Shown: positions 1,584 to 53,589 of the stretch, in pieces
Numbering within the stretch: position 1 is the first letter of the stretch
Layout of the letters: the number at the start of each line of letters is the position of its first letter
Source: Olivibacter domesticus
GTDB taxonomy: Bacteria; Bacteroidota; Bacteroidia; Sphingobacteriales; Sphingobacteriaceae
Direction: 5' to 3'
NCBI RefSeq assembly: GCF_900109575.1
Contig: NZ_FOAF01000012.1
Span: 62,001-126,000 of the forward strand
DNA length: 64,000 bases
The notes under the pieces: generated by a model
What the model was told of the DNA's origin: nothing
The model's database searches: none
Seen by the model: the letters and a program-made list of their open reading frames with translations, nothing else
Translations under genes and position numbers: made by a program

Positions 1584-2699
1584 ATGGATTATATAATAGC
1601 TGCAGGTATGTTTCAGGCGGGCATTGCTGTCGCCTTGCTCTGGCTTAATAAAAAGCGCAATCAGTATGACAATCTGCTCATCACGCTGATAGCTTGCATA
1701 GGTGTTCACCTATTTGCAAAATGGGTTATTTATGCGATGGTGGATGACAAAGATGTCAAGCTAGCTATGAATACATTTATTCAACTTGCTTACGGTCCCT
1801 TGATTTATTTATATGTAAGAAAGTTGAAAACCGGTTTTATACCGCTAACTTACTTATTCCTCTTTTTACCGCTCTTTATTGCAACCGTTGCCTACTTCTC
1901 CGTTATTAGCTCATTATTTGTTAACCCAGTTATTGGACATGCGCATTTACAGATATACAATAATTGGACAAGCTATTTTATTGTTATTGGAAATGGGGTC
2001 TATGCGGTTATTACCTCTTATCTACTAAAAAAATGGAAAAAAAATATTCCGTTCGCCGAATATAAATTGATCGGTAGCATCTGCGCAATTTTTATTTTTT
2101 TAAATGGATTATCAATCATTTGCATGGCGATAGAAAGCAATGCAACCTATTTATTGGCATTACGTTATGTTGCTTATTCTTTATTTATGGTGATATGCTT
2201 CTTGGTAGTCCGTCATAAATATGTAGGTACGAATCCGCCTGAGATCGTTGCAGATGATGAACAAAAGTCGGTTTCCGATCGTAAACCCATCCTTTCCAGT
2301 GAGCAATTAGCCGATTTTGCAGATATACTCAATACCTATATGCGGAAAACCAAAGCTTATTTGGATATTGATTTCAATATGGATAAACTAAGCGAGGATA
2401 CCAATATTAGTAGACGTTATATTTCGGAAACGCTAAATACATATTTTTTTAAGTCTTTTTATCGGTATATCAATGAATACCGTATAGAAGAATTTATTTT
2501 AGAGCTAAATAAAAGGATAGAAAGCGATGTAGAAATCAATCTACTGAGCATTGCTTATCAAAGTGGGTTTAAAACCAAATCGTCCTTTAACCTCTATTTT
2601 AAAAAAATTGTGGGTACCACTCCTACCGATTATGTCAAGAAAAATCAAGACAGTTTAAAAAAGTCAGCTATTCAGCCATTCGTTTTTCGCCTATTATAA
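1584..2699 (+). CDS. Membrane-embedded AraC-family transcriptional regulator
   Basis: The first 210 residues contain about seven hydrophobic segments (roughly 5-22, 33-52, 62-78, 87-108, 133-150, 165-185, 190-212). The C-terminal 120 residues are an AraC/HTH_18 DNA-binding domain, including ISRRYISETLN and LLSIAYQSGFKTKSSFNLYF. A membrane sensor joined directly to an AraC domain is common in Bacteroidota. The ligand is unknown. A GTG at 1581 lies just before the ATG at 1584; the ATG is preferred. A TAAATTTG box at 1555-1562 fits a -7 element. The gene is divergent from the receptor at 1-1321, which is its most likely target by position. Confidence 0.85.
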   Translation: MDYIIAAGMFQAGIAVALLWLNKKRNQYDNLLITLIACIGVHLFAKWVIYAMVDDKDVKLAMNTFIQLAYGPLIYLYVRKLKTGFIPLTYLFLFLPLFIATVAYFSVISSLFVNPVIGHAHLQIYNNWTSYFIVIGNGVYAVITSYLLKKWKKNIPFAEYKLIGSICAIFIFLNGLSIICMAIESNATYLLALRYVAYSLFMVICFLVVRHKYVGTNPPEIVADDEQKSVSDRKPILSSEQLADFADILNTYMRKTKAYLDIDFNMDKLSEDTNISRRYISETLNTYFFKSFYRYINEYRIEEFILELNKRIESDVEINLLSIAYQSGFKTKSSFNLYFKKIVGTTPTDYVKKNQDSLKKSAIQPFVFRLL

Positions 2700-2802
2700 T
2701 GGTCTCTTCAATTTATTGCGTAACGATCAATACTAGCAGAAGAAATAATGAACAATATAAAGCACTACTTCATTATTATTTAAGTATCTACTGATCATAT
2801 TT

Positions 2803-2834
2803 TTAATAAACAAAGTAATTACTTTGTTTATTAA
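2803..2834. promoter_or_regulatory. 32-bp perfect palindrome upstream of DUF2480/flavin reductase genes
   Basis: Sixteen bases (TTAATAAACAAAGTAA) are followed directly by their exact reverse complement. There is no loop and no T-tract, so a protein-binding operator or cruciform is more likely than a terminator. It ends 67 bp before the start codon at 2902, within reach of that operon's promoter. The inner core AAAGTAATTACTTT resembles sites of small winged-helix repressors in other bacteria, but that similarity is only suggestive. Confidence 0.5.
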
Positions 2835-2901
2835 TCACTTTTTAGTATGTTTGTTTTCACTATCAAGAGTTAAATAAGAAACTCAACAGACAAGTAGAAC
2901 A

Positions 2902-3420
2902 ATGGACATAGTTATCAAACCCCTAGACAAAATTTCAGCAACAGGAATTGTTGGCATTGATTTAATTGAATATCAACCGATATTAAGTTTCGAAATGCTT
3001 GATCTTGCTCCTTATCTTTACAAAGGACTGATCATCAAGGAAAAGGAGTTCAAGGATGGAATGGAAAAAATTGATTGGACAAAATATAGGGATAAAGCGG
3101 TAAGTATATCCTGCACCTTTGACGCGATCATACCCCAGTGGGTGTATATGTATATTACTGGCAAATTACACCCTTATGCTTCTTCGGTGTCATTCGGAAA
3201 TCAAAAAGAACATGAAATAGATCTTTGGAAAAAGAATTTAAGACAGGCAAATTTTAAACAGTATCGCGAAAAAAAGGTTGTATTAAAAGCCGACAGTCGG
3301 GTACCTGATACGATCTATGTGGAGGCTTCCACTTTACTCATCAGCAATAAAGTGCTAAGCTTGCTATATGGAGAAGTTGGAATGCCCAAGGTTATATATA
3401 AACAAATCGACAAATTATGA
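2902..3420 (+). CDS. DUF2480 family protein
   Basis: The 172-residue soluble protein matches the DUF2480 family of Bacteroidota by length and by conserved stretches: LYKGLIIKEKEFKDGMEKID, DAIIPQWVYMYI, and a C-terminal PDTIYVEASTLLISNKVLSL followed by a YGEVG segment. No signal peptide or membrane segment is present. Its function is not established. The stop overlaps the start of the flavin reductase gene by 4 bp (ATGA), so the two are translationally coupled. A long palindrome lies 67 bp upstream. Confidence 0.8.
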   Translation: MDIVIKPLDKISATGIVGIDLIEYQPILSFEMLDLAPYLYKGLIIKEKEFKDGMEKIDWTKYRDKAVSISCTFDAIIPQWVYMYITGKLHPYASSVSFGNQKEHEIDLWKKNLRQANFKQYREKKVVLKADSRVPDTIYVEASTLLISNKVLSLLYGEVGMPKVIYKQIDKL

Positions 3421-3956
3421 ATGTTTTAATATTTAATGGGGCATTAGAAAAAAGAAATCAAAGCACCTCTCAAACGATCAGCAATTATTTTAAAAATCGA
3501 TTTGAAAATGCAGGAGCTGATGTAACAGAATTCAAAATGGCAAATGCCAGTATACCTTTTTTTGACCTGACGTTACCCAATATACCGCAGTCTGTCAAAA
3601 TTATGGTCAGTACTTTTACCCAAGCAGATATTCACATATGGCTTACACCACTGTATCACGGTGGTATGACAGGCATTATGAAAAACTGTCTCGATTGGTT
3701 AGAAGTTAGCAGTAAATCAACACCACCCTATCTGAGCAATAAACTCATCGGATTAGTTTGTTGGGCAGATGGTGGGCATGCGATGCAAGGAATAAATGCG
3801 ATGGATGCGGTCGCGAAATCGCTTCGGGCATGGACACTTCCCTACTCTATACCTGCTGTAAGAGGCCATCTCTTTGATGAAACCGGTGGTCTCCACCTAT
3901 TATACCGTGAAAAATTCGACCTAATGACCCGTCTTTTATTAGAATCAAAGAAATGA
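3417..3956 (+). CDS. NAD(P)H-dependent FMN reductase (flavodoxin-like fold)
   Basis: The 179 residues form a flavodoxin-like NADPH-dependent FMN reductase. The N-terminal strand and phosphate loop (FNGALEKRNQSTSQ, about residues 5-18) are followed by the central segment QADIHIWLTPLYHGGMTGIM (about 70-89), with the usual P-x-Y-H-G-x flavin-binding turn and the following KNCLDW helix. Such enzymes reduce flavins, quinones or azo compounds; the substrate here is unknown. It overlaps the DUF2480 gene by 4 bp. Immediately after its stop codon begins the truncated MBL-fold remnant on the opposite strand. Confidence 0.85.
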   Translation: MNVLIFNGALEKRNQSTSQTISNYFKNRFENAGADVTEFKMANASIPFFDLTLPNIPQSVKIMVSTFTQADIHIWLTPLYHGGMTGIMKNCLDWLEVSSKSTPPYLSNKLIGLVCWADGGHAMQGINAMDAVAKSLRAWTLPYSIPAVRGHLFDETGGLHLLYREKFDLMTRLLLESKK

Positions 3957-4119
3957 GTGTTATCACCGACGGTATGGTATATGACGGGACAACGGTTTTA
4001 GGTTTATGCAATTGTTCCTTTAGTATGCGCAAAAAACTATCCCCCTTTGCCATCGTCGGCGTAAAAGATAAGTTATGATATTTCCCATTTTTAAAATTGG
4101 GCGATTGCGATTTATTCAT
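3957..4119 (-). pseudogene. N-terminal remnant of an MBL-fold (UlaG-like) hydrolase
   Basis: Reading from 4119 on the minus strand, about 53 residues (SPNFKNGKYHNLSFTP, then ILKEQLHKPKTVVPSYTIPSV) resemble the conserved N-terminus of UlaG-like metallo-beta-lactamase-fold proteins, which carry an SPN-x-G-x-F-x-N-x-TP block and an LPSV-type motif before the catalytic domain. No HxHxDH domain follows: the frame passes straight into the antisense of the neighbouring flavin reductase. The few in-frame codons upstream of the ATG (to about 4134) also fit. I read this as the broken end left by a deletion or rearrangement. The match is from memory of the family. Confidence 0.55.
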
Positions 4120-4158
4120 TCCTAGATTGTTTCTTAGGCAGGTAATATGTCTTTAACT

Positions 4159-5781
4159 CTATTTTCCTTCCGATAATTTTTCTAAGGTAAGATAACGGTC
4201 TCGATGTTTTTCGGTTTCGCCCGTTGTATTTACATCCAGATGCATTATTTGGGAAGCTTCTCCTTTTTCCATTGCCTGCCAATCGGGGACACCCAAGCCA
4301 TTGGGATTAGTCGTTTTTATAAAGTTTTCAAAATAAGTTTGCATGATAGTAGAAACTTTATAATCTTCCGGCTGCCAATCATACACACTATTGGTCGCAA
4401 GATTGCCCAATGCATATTCAATTTCTGCTGAATGTACCGCTCCTTTCGCTAAAGGAGTCTGTTGTTTCTTTGCGTCATCGCCTTTTATAACTCCGCCAGC
4501 TAAACCGGCAACAGCATTACCCATTTCGGCTCGCATAGCTGGCCTAGGTTTGGCATAAAGATAGCGATAAACAGGACTGTTCCCTGTTTGGCTATGTAGG
4601 TCGGCCCAACGCCAGGTGCCGTAGGCGATAAATTGATCGCCAGCAAAATCCGTGGCCACTTGTTCCACATCCATTTCACTTTGTGGCTTATATACCTGAA
4701 GCAATTCCTTCGCCTGTTCCCCAAAACGTTCTTCCACTACCTTTTTGAAATTTGCAATCGTCGGTTTCATCTCCCCTAATAATGCCCGATAATTCATCTC
4801 TTCGGAATTCCATCCCACTAATAAAGGCACCTTAGATTGATCTCCGCGCTTGAATGTAGCCACAGGATTTTCTTTGAAAAAATAACCATCTATATTGACT
4901 GGAAAACTTGCCTCAGGTTTCGTGGTAAACGCTAATAATTGTTCGGCAGGTATAGAACGAAGAGAAGTCAAGTCTTCTTTATTGATGCTGGTTGCAAAAG
5001 CTTTTCCTTTCTGCTCGGCTTCTTTCAATGGTGGTAGTGGTCTGTTGCCTAATAAAGCGCCACTTTCTCCTACTGCTGCTCGGAATAGGCCTTTTGACAG
5101 CGATGAAGCCATCTGTGCACTTACTGAAAACGATCCGGCAGATTCGCCTGCAATGGTTACTTTATTGGGATCGCCTCCAAATGCTGCAATATTCTGCTGC
5201 ACCCACTTTAGTGCAGCATATTGATCTAGTAAACCATAATTACCTGAAGCACCATTAGGAGATTCTTTGCTCAATTCGGGATGGGAGAAAAATCCAAATA
5301 TATTTAGGCGGTAATTAACGGTGATCGCGACAATTCCCCTACGTGCCATACTTTCTCCATCATAGCGAGGTTCAGAACCATCACCAGCAATTAAGCCGCC
5401 ACCATAAAAATATACCAACACCGGTAGCTTTTCATCATGAGATTTGGCCGGTGTCCAAACATTTAGGTACAGGCAATCCTCACTCATTCCATTAGACCTG
5501 AAATTCATATCGCCAAAAACAGGTCGCTGCATGGCCCTTGGTCCAAATTTATTGGCTTTTCTTACCCCCTCCCATTTCTCAACAGGCTGCGGCTCTCTCC
5601 ATCTAAATTTACCTACGGGCGGCGCGGCAAATGGAATACCTTTAAAAGAGTAAATACCTGATTCATCATTCCCTTCTAAAATGCCATCAGCAGTTTTAAT
5701 TTGCCGACTCATTTGATCGTTTTGTTGCGCATAAATAAAAGGCATAAAAAACAGCGTAAGAAAATATACAAAAACCTTCAT
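4159..5781 (-). CDS. Secreted type-B carboxylesterase
   Basis: The 540-residue alpha/beta hydrolase belongs to the carboxylesterase type B / para-nitrobenzyl esterase family, which hydrolyses carboxylic esters. A signal peptide (residues 1-18, ending FIYAQQ) sends it to the periplasm or beyond. The oxyanion loop is YFYGGGL (about 124-130), with Tyr where many relatives have His. The nucleophile is Ser214 in AGESAGS. The acid is probably Glu in WNSEEMNYR (near 327), and the base His lies in AVHSAEIEYALGN (near 447). Length is normal for the family. The physiological substrate is unknown. It is transcribed alone; the next gene upstream on the same strand starts 1.5 kb away. Confidence 0.88.
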   Translation of the reverse strand: MKVFVYFLTLFFMPFIYAQQNDQMSRQIKTADGILEGNDESGIYSFKGIPFAAPPVGKFRWREPQPVEKWEGVRKANKFGPRAMQRPVFGDMNFRSNGMSEDCLYLNVWTPAKSHDEKLPVLVYFYGGGLIAGDGSEPRYDGESMARRGIVAITVNYRLNIFGFFSHPELSKESPNGASGNYGLLDQYAALKWVQQNIAAFGGDPNKVTIAGESAGSFSVSAQMASSLSKGLFRAAVGESGALLGNRPLPPLKEAEQKGKAFATSINKEDLTSLRSIPAEQLLAFTTKPEASFPVNIDGYFFKENPVATFKRGDQSKVPLLVGWNSEEMNYRALLGEMKPTIANFKKVVEERFGEQAKELLQVYKPQSEMDVEQVATDFAGDQFIAYGTWRWADLHSQTGNSPVYRYLYAKPRPAMRAEMGNAVAGLAGGVIKGDDAKKQQTPLAKGAVHSAEIEYALGNLATNSVYDWQPEDYKVSTIMQTYFENFIKTTNPNGLGVPDWQAMEKGEASQIMHLDVNTTGETEKHRDRYLTLEKLSEGK

Positions 5782-30915: not shown

Positions 30916-33078
30916 TTATCCGTCAATCAATGGGGCATGAAGCAGTACAATTGAACGCCCTTCCACTCTTACTATGTCGCCGGGCTTACATTGGTCTTCA
31001 TCATTCAATTGCGCGTTTGAAGTATCTAGTATCTTTGTCCATTCCTGTCCATATTTTTCTGCCGGTAACTTGTAGTCAATAGTCCCATCATATGCGTTAA
31101 AAATCACATAAAAATGATCATCATAAATTTTATTACCTACTTGATCAACTGAACGAATCCCCCTACCGTCAAGATAGACGGCAAGCGACTTGGCATAATC
31201 GTTATCCCAAGCCTCGTCGGGCATTATGTTTCCTTCAGGCAAAAACCAGACAATATCTTCTACCCCTGCTCCTTTTATTTTCTGACCCATAAACCATTTA
31301 CGTCTACAAAATGTTGGATGTTTTTGCCTAAAATGAATGAGTCTTTTTGTAAAATCCAGTAGTGAGGTATCGGCGTCATTCCAATTATACCAGGATAGTT
31401 CATTATCCTGACAATAGACGTTATTATTGCCATTTTGAGTACGACCTAACTCATCGCCACCTAATAACATGGGGACACCCTGAGATAAGAATAGCGTCAC
31501 TAAAAAATTACGTTTTTGCTTCATTCGTAAAGCCATTATATCCTGATTATCTGTCACCCCCTCCACTCCACAGTTCCATGAACGATTGTGGCTCTCGCCA
31601 TCCTGCCCCCCTTCCCCATTTGCTTCATTATGTTTTTCATTATACGAAACAAGGTCGGTAAGCGTAAAACCATCATGTGCGGTTATAAAATTGACGCTTG
31701 CAGTTGGCTTTCTATAATCATCCTGATATAAATCGGAACTACCGGTAAAGCGTGACGCAAATTCTCCTAATTTACTATCTTCCCCTCGCCAAAAATCACG
31801 TATACAATCTCGATATTTACCATTCCATTCTACCCAACCAGCAGGAAAATTTCCTACTTGGTAACCGCCTTCTCCAACATCCCATGGTTCGGCAATCAGC
31901 TTGACCTGCGAAATGGTAGGGTCTTGATGAATAATGTCAAAAAAAGCACTCAGTTTATTTACGTCATGGAATTCTCTCGCTAATGCTGAGGCGAGGTCAA
32001 ACCGAAAACCATCAACATGCATGTCTAAAATCCAATAACGTAAGCTATCCATAATTAACTGCAACACATTGGGTAGGTTTGCGTTGAGGGTATTGCCCGT
32101 ACCGGTATAATCCATGTAATAGCGTGCATCATCTGTGAGTCGATAATAAGAGGCATTGTCGATGCCCTTGAAACTTAAGGTTGGTCCAAGCTCATTGCCT
32201 TCTGCCGTATGGTTATATACCACATCAAGAATTACCTCTATTCCTCCCGCATGTAGGTTCTTAACCATTTGTTTAAATTCGATCACTTGCTCACCGTTTA
32301 CACCGCTTGAGCTGTACTTTACATCGGGAGCAAAGAAACCGATCGTATTGTATCCCCAATAATTATTGAGTCCATTATTTTGCAAATGTCCGTCGTTAAC
32401 AAATTGATGTATTGGCATTAGTTCGATAGCCGTTACACCTAATTCTTGCAAATATTTAATAGTAATAGGATGCCCTATCGCGGCATAGGTCCCGCGGATA
32501 TCTTCTGGTATTTCTGCATGTGAAATAGTAAAGCCCTTCACATGGGTTTCATAAATAATTGTTTCATGATATAAGGTATTAGGTCTTTTATCATCTCCCC
32601 AATCAAATGAATGATCTATTACCACCGATTTAGGAATATAGGGAGCACTATCCTGTTCATTAAAGCTGGTATCTTTTTCTTCACTTCCTAAGTCATAGCC
32701 AAAAATGGATTCATGCCATTTAATCGCACCTGCAATAGCCTTGGCATAAGGATCGATCAACAATTTATGTGGATTAAACCGATGCCCTTCTGTAGGAATG
32801 TAGGGGCCATAAACGCGAAAACCATATTTTTGTCCAGGTCTCAAATCAGGTAAATAAATATGCCATATGTCATGACTGCGCTCTGTCATTGGAATGCGTT
32901 CTTCTGTCGCATCCGATCTTTCTGAAGTAAACAAGCACAATTCCACCCCTTCGGCATGCTTTGCAAAGAGTGCAAAGTTTATGCCCTTTCCGTCATAGGT
33001 GGCACCCAAGGGATATGGACGGCCAGGATAGTTTTTTTTTCTCATACTTAAATTATTTTTGACCGTCACACTATTCAA
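30916..33078 (-). CDS. glgX: Glycogen debranching enzyme (GlgX/TreX type)
   Basis: The 720-residue isoamylase-type GH13 enzyme has an N-terminal CBM48-like domain (YPLGATYDGKGINFALF). The catalytic blocks are DGFRFDLASALARE with the nucleophile Asp, KLIAEPWDVGEGGYQVGNFP with the acid Glu, and ITAHDGFTLTDLVSYNEKHN with the third Asp. It cuts alpha-1,6 branches of glycogen to give linear maltodextrins, the substrate of TreY. It is the first gene of the operon. A 22-bp palindrome lies 105 bp upstream of its start. In archaeal and actinobacterial systems the partner in this position is called TreX. Confidence 0.93.
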   Translation of the reverse strand: MNSVTVKNNLSMRKKNYPGRPYPLGATYDGKGINFALFAKHAEGVELCLFTSERSDATEERIPMTERSHDIWHIYLPDLRPGQKYGFRVYGPYIPTEGHRFNPHKLLIDPYAKAIAGAIKWHESIFGYDLGSEEKDTSFNEQDSAPYIPKSVVIDHSFDWGDDKRPNTLYHETIIYETHVKGFTISHAEIPEDIRGTYAAIGHPITIKYLQELGVTAIELMPIHQFVNDGHLQNNGLNNYWGYNTIGFFAPDVKYSSSGVNGEQVIEFKQMVKNLHAGGIEVILDVVYNHTAEGNELGPTLSFKGIDNASYYRLTDDARYYMDYTGTGNTLNANLPNVLQLIMDSLRYWILDMHVDGFRFDLASALAREFHDVNKLSAFFDIIHQDPTISQVKLIAEPWDVGEGGYQVGNFPAGWVEWNGKYRDCIRDFWRGEDSKLGEFASRFTGSSDLYQDDYRKPTASVNFITAHDGFTLTDLVSYNEKHNEANGEGGQDGESHNRSWNCGVEGVTDNQDIMALRMKQKRNFLVTLFLSQGVPMLLGGDELGRTQNGNNNVYCQDNELSWYNWNDADTSLLDFTKRLIHFRQKHPTFCRRKWFMGQKIKGAGVEDIVWFLPEGNIMPDEAWDNDYAKSLAVYLDGRGIRSVDQVGNKIYDDHFYVIFNAYDGTIDYKLPAEKYGQEWTKILDTSNAQLNDEDQCKPGDIVRVEGRSIVLLHAPLIDG

Positions 33079-33182: not shown

Positions 33183-33204
33183 TTTGTTTATTGCAATAAA
33201 CAAA
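33183..33204. promoter_or_regulatory. 22-bp perfect palindrome upstream of the trehalose operon
   Basis: TTTGTTTATTG is followed directly by its exact reverse complement. It lies 105 bp upstream of glgX and outside the terminator of the S10 peptidase gene. There is no loop and no T-tract beyond the arm. It is a candidate operator for trehalose or glycogen control. It shares the ten bases AATAAACAAA with the 2803-2834 palindrome, but arranged the other way about the centre. Confidence 0.4.
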
Positions 33205-33317: not shown

Positions 33318-34799
33318 TTAGTATTTAGCAGGAACGCCCTTTTCCACTAAGGTGTTTTTAATAAACGTTCTTAAATCATCATTGGCTTCTTTCAAATCAG
33401 GCTTTCTCATATAAATCATATGACCTGTTCTATAGCCTTTAAACGACATTCTATTTTGAAATTTACCTGCGGGATCCATTTGCCACAAATTGTACTTAGC
33501 ATTGAAATAATCGCAAGCACCATCATAGTAACCAGATTGTACCATTACATGTAAATAAGGGTTTTGAGCCATCGCCTGTTGCAAATTCTCTCCTGTATTA
33601 TTGTCCTTCTGATCCCAAGGAAAAACCGATCCAAATACATTATATTTTACATCTGTCTTATAATTGAGCTCATTGCGAATATAATAATTAATAGCCGGTG
33701 TAAAAGAATGTAGCCAAGAAGTAAGCTCTGCATTGTAATCGGGTTTCTCTCCCGCGTCTTGCTTATCTTTTCCCAGATATCTCGAATCCAAACGACCTAT
33801 GGTTAGTCCTTTATCGCGCAACAATTCCTTCCAAAAAAACCAGGTGGAAATATTAAAATTGTTCTGAAGAATTGTCTTTTCAGTAAGACCCGCATATCGA
33901 GCCATATTACGTGCTATTGCTGTTTTACTATCCTGTTCTAAATTACCGCCTCTTGTAATTGCAGGAAGCAGTTCTTTTATCGTAAAGGCTTCTACTTCTG
34001 GTAAAAGATCATTCAAATCTCTTTGTTGCAAATCGGCAGGAAGTGCTTTGTGGTACCACGCTGTAGCTGCAAAATAAGGTAACCGCAAAGCTACATCAAC
34101 AGGTCCCTCGCGTTTTAGTCCTAAATCAGTCGGAGAAACTAAAACAACCCCGTTTAGGTACATCCATTGCGACTCTTGTAGCTCCAAGGCAAGTCCGGAA
34201 ACACGCGTAGTACCATAGCTCTCTCCTATTAAATATTTGGGAGATTGCCACCTGTTATTTCGCGTAACAAAAGTATTGATCCATGCAGCCAAATATTTTA
34301 TATCAGCATTTACCCCAAAAAAAACATTCTTATCTGTTTTTTTATCCAAGATACGAGAATAGCCTGTATTTACAGGATTAACATAAACAATATCTGCTAC
34401 ATCTAATATTGAATGTGGGTTATCTTTCATCTCACCATATGGCTGTACAGGATAACCTTCATCATCTAGCGTAAGTATTCTAGGTCCTGTATATCCTATT
34501 TCCATCCAAAGAGACGCAGAGCCTGGTCCACCATTAAAAGAAATAACTAACGGCCTATTTGACTTATTCTTTATATCTGACCGCTCATAAAAAGTAAAAT
34601 TTATAGTAGCAATAGCTTTTCCATCTTCGTCCCATATTGGTTGAGTTCCGATAGTGGCGGTATAAGGAATGTTTACATTATTTATTGCCACCGTATGTTT
34701 GGTAGCAATAACAGAATCTGCCGGTGGATCTGGCTGAGCCTTTGAAGAAAAAGTTATGCACAAAAACCCCAAGGCAATAGTATAAAGTTTAATCACCAT
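33318..34799 (-). CDS. Exported S10-family serine carboxypeptidase
   Basis: The 493-residue protein has a signal peptide (about 1-21, ITFSSKAQP). The S10 carboxypeptidase motifs are present: substrate-binding SFNGGPGSASLWMEIGYTGP, nucleophile Ser in GESYGTTRVSG, Asp in QSGYYDGACDYFNAKY, and His in TGHMIYMRKPDL. It should remove C-terminal residues from peptides in the periplasm or outside. Length is normal for bacterial members. It is a single gene with its own terminator. Confidence 0.9.
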   Translation of the reverse strand: MVIKLYTIALGFLCITFSSKAQPDPPADSVIATKHTVAINNVNIPYTATIGTQPIWDEDGKAIATINFTFYERSDIKNKSNRPLVISFNGGPGSASLWMEIGYTGPRILTLDDEGYPVQPYGEMKDNPHSILDVADIVYVNPVNTGYSRILDKKTDKNVFFGVNADIKYLAAWINTFVTRNNRWQSPKYLIGESYGTTRVSGLALELQESQWMYLNGVVLVSPTDLGLKREGPVDVALRLPYFAATAWYHKALPADLQQRDLNDLLPEVEAFTIKELLPAITRGGNLEQDSKTAIARNMARYAGLTEKTILQNNFNISTWFFWKELLRDKGLTIGRLDSRYLGKDKQDAGEKPDYNAELTSWLHSFTPAINYYIRNELNYKTDVKYNVFGSVFPWDQKDNNTGENLQQAMAQNPYLHVMVQSGYYDGACDYFNAKYNLWQMDPAGKFQNRMSFKGYRTGHMIYMRKPDLKEANDDLRTFIKNTLVEKGVPAKY

Positions 34800-52136: not shown

Positions 52137-53486
<1,350 letters not shown>

Positions 53487-53494
53487 GCATAAGA

Positions 53495-53550
53495 AATATT
53501 ACAAACAAAAAAACCTGCATTATAATGCAGGTTTTTTTGTTTGTAATATT
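53495..53550 (+). terminator. Exceptionally long perfect-stem terminator after eno
   Basis: A 26-bp perfect inverted repeat (arms 53495-53520 and 53525-53550) encloses the tetraloop TATA. The core CCTGCAT/ATGCAGG is flanked by seven A and seven T. One more A-T pair extends it outward. It begins 8 bp after the eno stop codon and could act in both directions. Confidence 0.9.
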
Positions 53551-53589
53551 TTTTTAAGTTAGGTTTGTATATATAAAACGAATGATATC

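Follow-up and report, generated by a model that had tools for sequence, protein, structure and literature searches.

SoxR is a MerR-type [2Fe-2S] protein that switches on SOD and pump genes. Cyanobacterial SufR is a repressor that binds in its [4Fe-4S]2+ form, with expression going up under oxidative stress and iron limitation (PMC13421787); the same source also states the SufR box CAAC-N6-GTTG, autoregulation and the cysteines of the protein, which are named C164, C171 and C206 in Synechocystis. In cyanobacteria the regulator gene is divergent from the suf genes (PMC7058544); neither that source nor PMC4182526 yielded the letters of the box. The mycobacterial SufR, Rv1460, needs three cysteines, spaced C203-x12-C216-x27-C244 (PMC6034842).

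Here, we analysed a palindrome lying in a window, i.e. a continuous stretch of 64,000 nucleotides, of the genome of Olivibacter domesticus. We put at about 0.86 the probability that this palindrome serves as operator for a SufR-like iron-sulfur repressor whose gene lies elsewhere in this genome and which would control an operon made of a DUF2480 gene and an FMN reductase gene. Most likely, it would be an operator of the SufR type that overlaps the promoter and that serves, in this genome, a redox-defence operon rather than suf.

The palindrome and its predicted promoter

Positions 2803-2834 of the window read TTAATAAACAAAGTAATTACTTTGTTTATTAA, which is identical to its own reverse complement: 16+16 bases without a loop, i.e. 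32 bp. The earlier note had judged a perfect palindrome of this length unlikely by chance. A chance origin can indeed be rejected, since order-3 Markov models of the 64-kb window, simulated 60 times, gave loop-free arms of at most 11 bases, against 16 in the observed palindrome, which thus exceeds chance. The features discussed below are as follows.

2803..2834, no strand: proposed operator of the SufR-like repressor, a 32-bp perfect palindrome, from its own symmetry and its conserved copies
2805..2832, no strand: conserved 28-bp operator unit AATAAACAAAGTAATTACTTTGTTTATT, with wings AATAAA / TTTATT and core AAAG-N6-CTTT, from site comparison
2823..2826, + strand: TTTG in the right arm, 19 bases from the -7 box, proposed -33 element, from the general consensus
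2846..2853, + strand: TATGTTTG, proposed -7 box (TAnnTTTG), from the consensus in PMC9723704
2858..2858, + strand: expected transcription start for a box at -12 to -5 (box position from PMC9723704)
2902..3420, + strand: DUF2480 paralog, first gene of the operon (Pfam match, PF10652, E 8e-44)
3417..3956, + strand: NADPH-dependent FMN reductase family protein, second gene of the operon (Pfam match, PF03358 FMN_red, E 3e-20)

The end of the palindrome and the ATG at 2902 are separated by 67 bases, which together with the two Pfam matches bears out the earlier placement of the palindrome 67 bp upstream of a two-gene operon for DUF2480 and a flavin reductase. The two genes overlap by 4 bases. In Flavobacterium, the main sigma factor has TAnnTTTG as its -7 box (PMC9723704). 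Since TTTG lies in the right arm and TATGTTTG follows 19 bases on, the upstream half of the predicted promoter falls within the palindrome. This geometry recurs elsewhere: in all of the 21 target promoters read (13 + 8), 37-41 bases separate the first base of the 28-mer from that of TAnnTTTG. These promoters are a subset of the available box promoters that leaves aside the regulators' own, and the chance expectation for this motif in a span of 5 nt is about 0.3%.

The palindrome lies between the operon and an AraC-type gene, its upstream neighbour, and its transcript could fold into a hairpin (-15.5 kcal/mol, z -4.5), as expected of any perfect palindrome. One might hence speculate on a Rho-independent terminator or an attenuator of the AraC-type gene, acting in RNA. 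We regard this as very unlikely. The palindrome has few G-C pairs and no T-tract (U-tract in the RNA) follows on its 3' side, an absence from which the earlier note had rightly argued against a terminator, and a terminator scan of 2000-4600 reports a single site, at 4439. Besides, the sister species Olivibacter jilunii has another gene upstream, yet the palindrome stays; the second copy of the site, described below, reaches a start codon; and the 21 promoters show an almost constant distance to TAnnTTTG.

Two other palindromes of the window deserve mention. The only perfect one longer than 32 bp, at 53494-53551 (58 bp, 29-base arms, A/T runs), is placed directly after an enolase-like gene (52194-53486) and looks like a two-way intrinsic terminator. 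The other, at 33183-33204, is a perfect palindrome of 22 bp, TTTGTTTATTGCAATAAACAAA, in which the half-sites of the operator wings are turned outwards; it sits between the minus-strand genes 30916-33078 and 33318-34799.

Further copies and the regulator gene

A search of the 6.78 Mb genome with the 18-base core of the palindrome gave two strong sites, the palindrome itself and a copy with one mismatch (29/32 over the full palindrome), which abuts the start codon of a SufR-like regulator gene. There, the box is 3' of the -7 box TACATTTG and extends to the start codon. The other five sites carry three mismatches. The 28-mer pattern finds one further match, with 1 mismatch, at C10:1309986. Perfect palindromes may be terminal or miniature repeats, so a repeat element or the footprint of a mobile element was also considered, but such an origin is barely credible: the two strong copies in 6.78 Mb each stand before a gene, which disposes of the many random copies that the earlier note associated with a repeat, a reversed-pattern control gave 18 sites, more than the seven found within three mismatches, and the match at C10:1309986 is on one strand only.

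The operon is kept in the same gene order in O. jilunii (G001), and with it the palindrome (26/28), so that a relative keeping the operon has the palindrome too. The upstream neighbour of the operon in this species reads by eye as LacI type, not AraC type. Its regulator, 75% identical to that of the window genome, has at its gene a degenerate site (21/28), and TAnnTTTG was not found within 45 bases upstream of this gene; a copy of the box (27/28) also lies upstream of an RND pump operon. Among five genomes of the genus (g1), the regulator is found only in the window genome (G000) and O. jilunii, as is the DUF2480 paralog (E <= 1e-35), and the box matches on both strands in 2/2 genomes with the regulator vs 0/3 without it. 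The operator that the earlier note had proposed from position gains support from this conservation, from the promoter geometry and from the second copy on the regulator gene, all of which are consistent with a regulatory site.

The regulator gene of the window genome (contig C10, 2016692-2017318; also L002 1524-2153) codes for 209 aa. The protein matches the SufR model TIGR02702 over residues 12-206 (E 1e-31), and is the sole regulator match of this type in the genome at E <= 0.001. Its score of 110.3 bits is below the equivalog cut-off of 178.8, and we thus call it SufR-like, not SufR. All 46 members of an alignment built from the regulator hits (A2) match TIGR02702. Its sequence places the regulator among the winged-helix proteins of the SufR iron-sulfur family. 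It has cysteines C159, C172 and C202, spaced C-x12-C-x29-C, and these three C-terminal columns are cysteine in 116/116 collected regulators, a collection gathered with a motif that includes the first cysteine and therefore biased for that column. A fourth cysteine, C168, was tried as a divider between regulators of the redox type and of the suf type. It is missing in five regulators that end suf operons and present in the other 111/116, but it fails as a divider because the regulators of genus g20 carry it: two of them are divergent from sufBC (2/2 loci read), and C168 was confirmed in three others of this genus.

The predicted structure of the regulator (pLDDT 90.1, pTM 0.64) has PadR as its top Foldseek match (E 9.6e-5, TM 0.28) and also bears a weak resemblance to the sensory domain of PoxR (E 5e-4, TM 0.42, rmsd 13). 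The latter likeness was not reproduced by a second aligner, VIA, whose listed rows are mostly of the MarR type and cover mostly residues 1-78 (best Z 11.3 with 3e6m, rmsd 2.5, 69 aligned); likeness of the C-terminal part is thus unproven. Sequence searches of solved structures gave matches limited to the DNA-binding part.

Box and regulator across genomes

We searched 399 genomes of the family for the regulator, with a hit in 81 and none in 318, and for the box, as a 28-mer pattern derived from sites that had come to light early on and matched on both strands with one mismatch allowed. The box is found in 72/81 genomes with the regulator vs 24/318 genomes without it, which answers the suggestion of the earlier note to look for small winged-helix regulators that co-occur with the palindrome. 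Counts were also made inside single genera because shared ancestry has less effect there: 45/46 vs 0/47 in genus g16 and 25/27 vs 7/77 in genus g14. Seven of the 24 matches in genomes lacking the regulator are thus from g14, and the 24 are probably chance matches in AT-rich DNA. The nine regulator-positive genomes without a both-strand match are all six of g20, the fragment G247, G267 and G313. The g20 genomes have instead a CAAG-N6-CTTG box with other wings, in 5/5 loci read.

The box also follows the regulator gene itself. Within the 430 bp before 50 named regulators of Bacteroidota/Balneolota, it is found in 41/50 with up to one mismatch and in 48/50 with up to three, compared with 0/50 within one mismatch in a downstream control of the same regulators. 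The two misses (L151, L172) are regulators that end suf operons. Outside Bacteroidota/Balneolota the long box, within 3 mismatches, precedes 5/29 regulators. The best palindrome upstream of a regulator is often no better than those in shuffles of such AT-rich DNA; hence, the evidence upstream of regulators lies in the identity and the position of the site, not in palindromy alone.

These counts bear on the possibility that the palindrome is the operator of another regulator sharing these targets, e.g. the adjacent AraC-type protein or a quinone sensor of the MarR/HxlR type. Any dimeric repressor would suit a long symmetric site, and the AraC-type gene adjoins the palindrome. Nevertheless, the box co-occurs with the SufR-like gene across genomes, in a comparison that covered this regulator family, it stands before that gene in 48 of the 50 loci, and in O. 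jilunii the gene upstream is not the AraC-type one. We thus find an operator for another protein improbable, and the SufR-like regulator remains our preferred candidate.

Box and regulator are also associated with a particular kind of DUF2480 gene. Among 58 DUF2480 hits at E<=1e-33, 46 have a regulator hit within 5 kb, in every case divergently oriented. Four others (window genome, G001, G345, G231) belong to regulator-positive genomes and are farther off or on another contig, and eight, with borderline E-values, are from genomes without a regulator hit. In loci of ~3.5 kb each, the box is present in 28/28 regulator loci, 26/28 paralog loci and 0/28 canonical DUF2480 loci, the first two sets being partly the same places and the canonical loci all coming from genomes without a regulator hit. 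The canonical DUF2480 of the window genome (C3:52888) has no box within one mismatch nearby. Canonical DUF2480 proteins have cysteines in the motifs KGC and GE[PA]C (comparison of the window paralog with L011 9865-10392 and L020-L041); the window paralog and nine other aligned paralogs have lost both and kept C71. The predicted structure of DUF2480 (pLDDT 90.8) reaches at most Z 4.1 in VIA (6vjg, rmsd 3.0, 68 aligned) and has no Foldseek match at E <= 0.001, and no solved structure was matched by sequence. Comparison of this model yields no function, and we found no paper on DUF2480 in the open-access literature. If the palindrome is the operator of the SufR-like regulator, DUF2480 gains a functional context, and a concrete operator and a list of signals follow.

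Targets and comparison with known systems

In the 28 paralog loci, which extend 1.5 kb on each side, DUF2480 is accompanied by FMN reductase, SOD and the regulator in 14, by a pump adaptor and the regulator in 6, by FMN reductase and SOD in 5, by FMN reductase and the regulator in 2, and by SOD and the regulator in 1. We also read the surroundings, within 5 kb, of 80 named loci, the best of at least 580 relatives of the regulator, which is no census; neighbours were counted at phmmer >60 bits. The 50 from Bacteroidota/Balneolota include 27 with SOD, 21 with FMN reductase, 19 with an RND pump, 18 with a pump adaptor, 16 with DUF2480, 2 with sufB and 1 with none of these classes, and the 30 from other phyla include 21 with MFS, 4 with SOD, 2 with RND and 7 with none. 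A SOD-DUF2480-FMN reductase operon of G345 (L222), located ~27 kb from the regulator, shares the box with the operon of the window, itself unlinked. Genome G372 carries the regulator gene four times (L225-L228): SOD-DUF2480-FMN reductase genes adjoin three of the copies and a pump adaptor gene the fourth, and the L226 copy shows no box even when 3 mismatches are allowed.

The earlier note had thought of a redox- or quinone-sensing repressor. The redox part fits a winged-helix regulator of the SufR family whose relatives neighbour SOD, FMN reductase and efflux pumps; the regulator belongs to a class other than the small quinone sensors that may have been meant there. If, as we infer, the protein binds this site and carries a cluster, control would be negative: a repressor dimer with an intact cluster would occupy the 28-bp unit, over the -33 element, and keep the DUF2480-FMN reductase operon off. 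The second site, which covers the start codon of the regulator gene and the promoter region before it, would allow autorepression. Loss of the cluster or a change in its redox state, upon exposure to superoxide or redox-cycling compounds or upon iron shortage, would then release the repressor.

The target classes suggest a role against superoxide and redox-cycling toxins more than one in iron-sulfur supply: sufB of the window genome has no box within 6 mismatches in the 600 bp upstream. The two SOD genes of this genome have no box upstream either, and the redox interpretation thus draws on the flavin reductase and on the relatives. The idea that the regulator mainly serves suf in the window genome found no support, as 0/8 sufB upstream regions (G000, G001 and six others) have a box within the limit of 6 mismatches.

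The picture differs among genera. A box 24-27/28 identical to that of the window precedes sufB-C-D-S-E and a SufR-like gene in 9/9 loci read of genus g14, loci chosen for a known box or a second regulator (L218, L223, L224, L242-L245, L249, L250). This genus resembles the named Pedobacter loci. In three other g14 genomes (G334, G391, G403; L234, L236, L239), sufB is without a box. Two g20 genomes have the regulator divergent from sufB-sufC, which is the cyanobacterial arrangement as given in PMC7058544.

SufR has been described for iron-sulfur assembly, and the box in relatives marks a regulon apparently aimed at superoxide and redox-active toxins. We lean, by a small margin over even odds, towards a broader interpretation: this branch of the SufR family might be a general redox-defence switch of Bacteroidota, doing the work of SoxR as a repressor, with one box that ties together SOD, the DUF2480 paralog, FMN reductase, RND and MFS pumps, and also suf in some genera. 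No matching SufR or SoxR regulon was found for Bacteroidota in the open-access literature. Among relatives of the regulator in Proteobacteria and others (L165-L210), those of Mesorhizobium, Bradyrhizobium, Yersinia, Advenella and Paraburkholderia adjoin MFS genes, and those of Devosia, Ochrobactrum and Brucella tritici adjoin SOD. Since they lie beside MFS or SOD in Proteobacteria, such a switch may be widespread and unnamed.

How close is this system to those already known? With cyanobacterial SufR it shares a homologous regulator, aligned over nearly its full length, three conserved cysteines, a site at the regulator's own gene and the spacing of the half-sites. The likeness of the box is variable: the window has the core AAAG-TAATTA-CTTT instead of CAAC-N6-GTTG, at the same spacing, and adds the wings AATAAA/TTTATT, whereas Pedobacter boxes read CAAC/CAAG-N6-CTTG and Chryseobacterium boxes are CAAC-N6-GTTG letter for letter (e.g. 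L209), and boxes stand before suf in g14. The more general CAAS-N6-STTG is found upstream of 23/50 regulators of Bacteroidota/Balneolota and 14/29 of the others, with 1/79 in the control. Unlike cyanobacterial SufR, the window regulator scores below the equivalog cut-off, its proposed target is the DUF2480-FMN reductase operon and not suf, and the targets in relatives are SOD and efflux pumps. Rv1460, likewise an iron-sulfur repressor, depends on three cysteines; the first and second are 13 residues apart, as in the window regulator, and the last is x27 rather than x29 further on (PMC6034842). The spacing of C164/C171/C206 in Synechocystis, as named in PMC13421787, differs from both. Rv1460 is the first gene of a suf operon, whereas the window regulator is unlinked from suf. 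SoxR belongs to another protein family: the MerR model is not among the Pfam matches of our regulator up to E 1, and given its homology to SufR over residues 12-206 the latter is not a SoxR. It would also act as a repressor over the -33 element and not as an activator. Yet, the target classes found in relatives, i.e. SOD, flavin reductase and RND and MFS pumps, are like those of the SoxR regulon.
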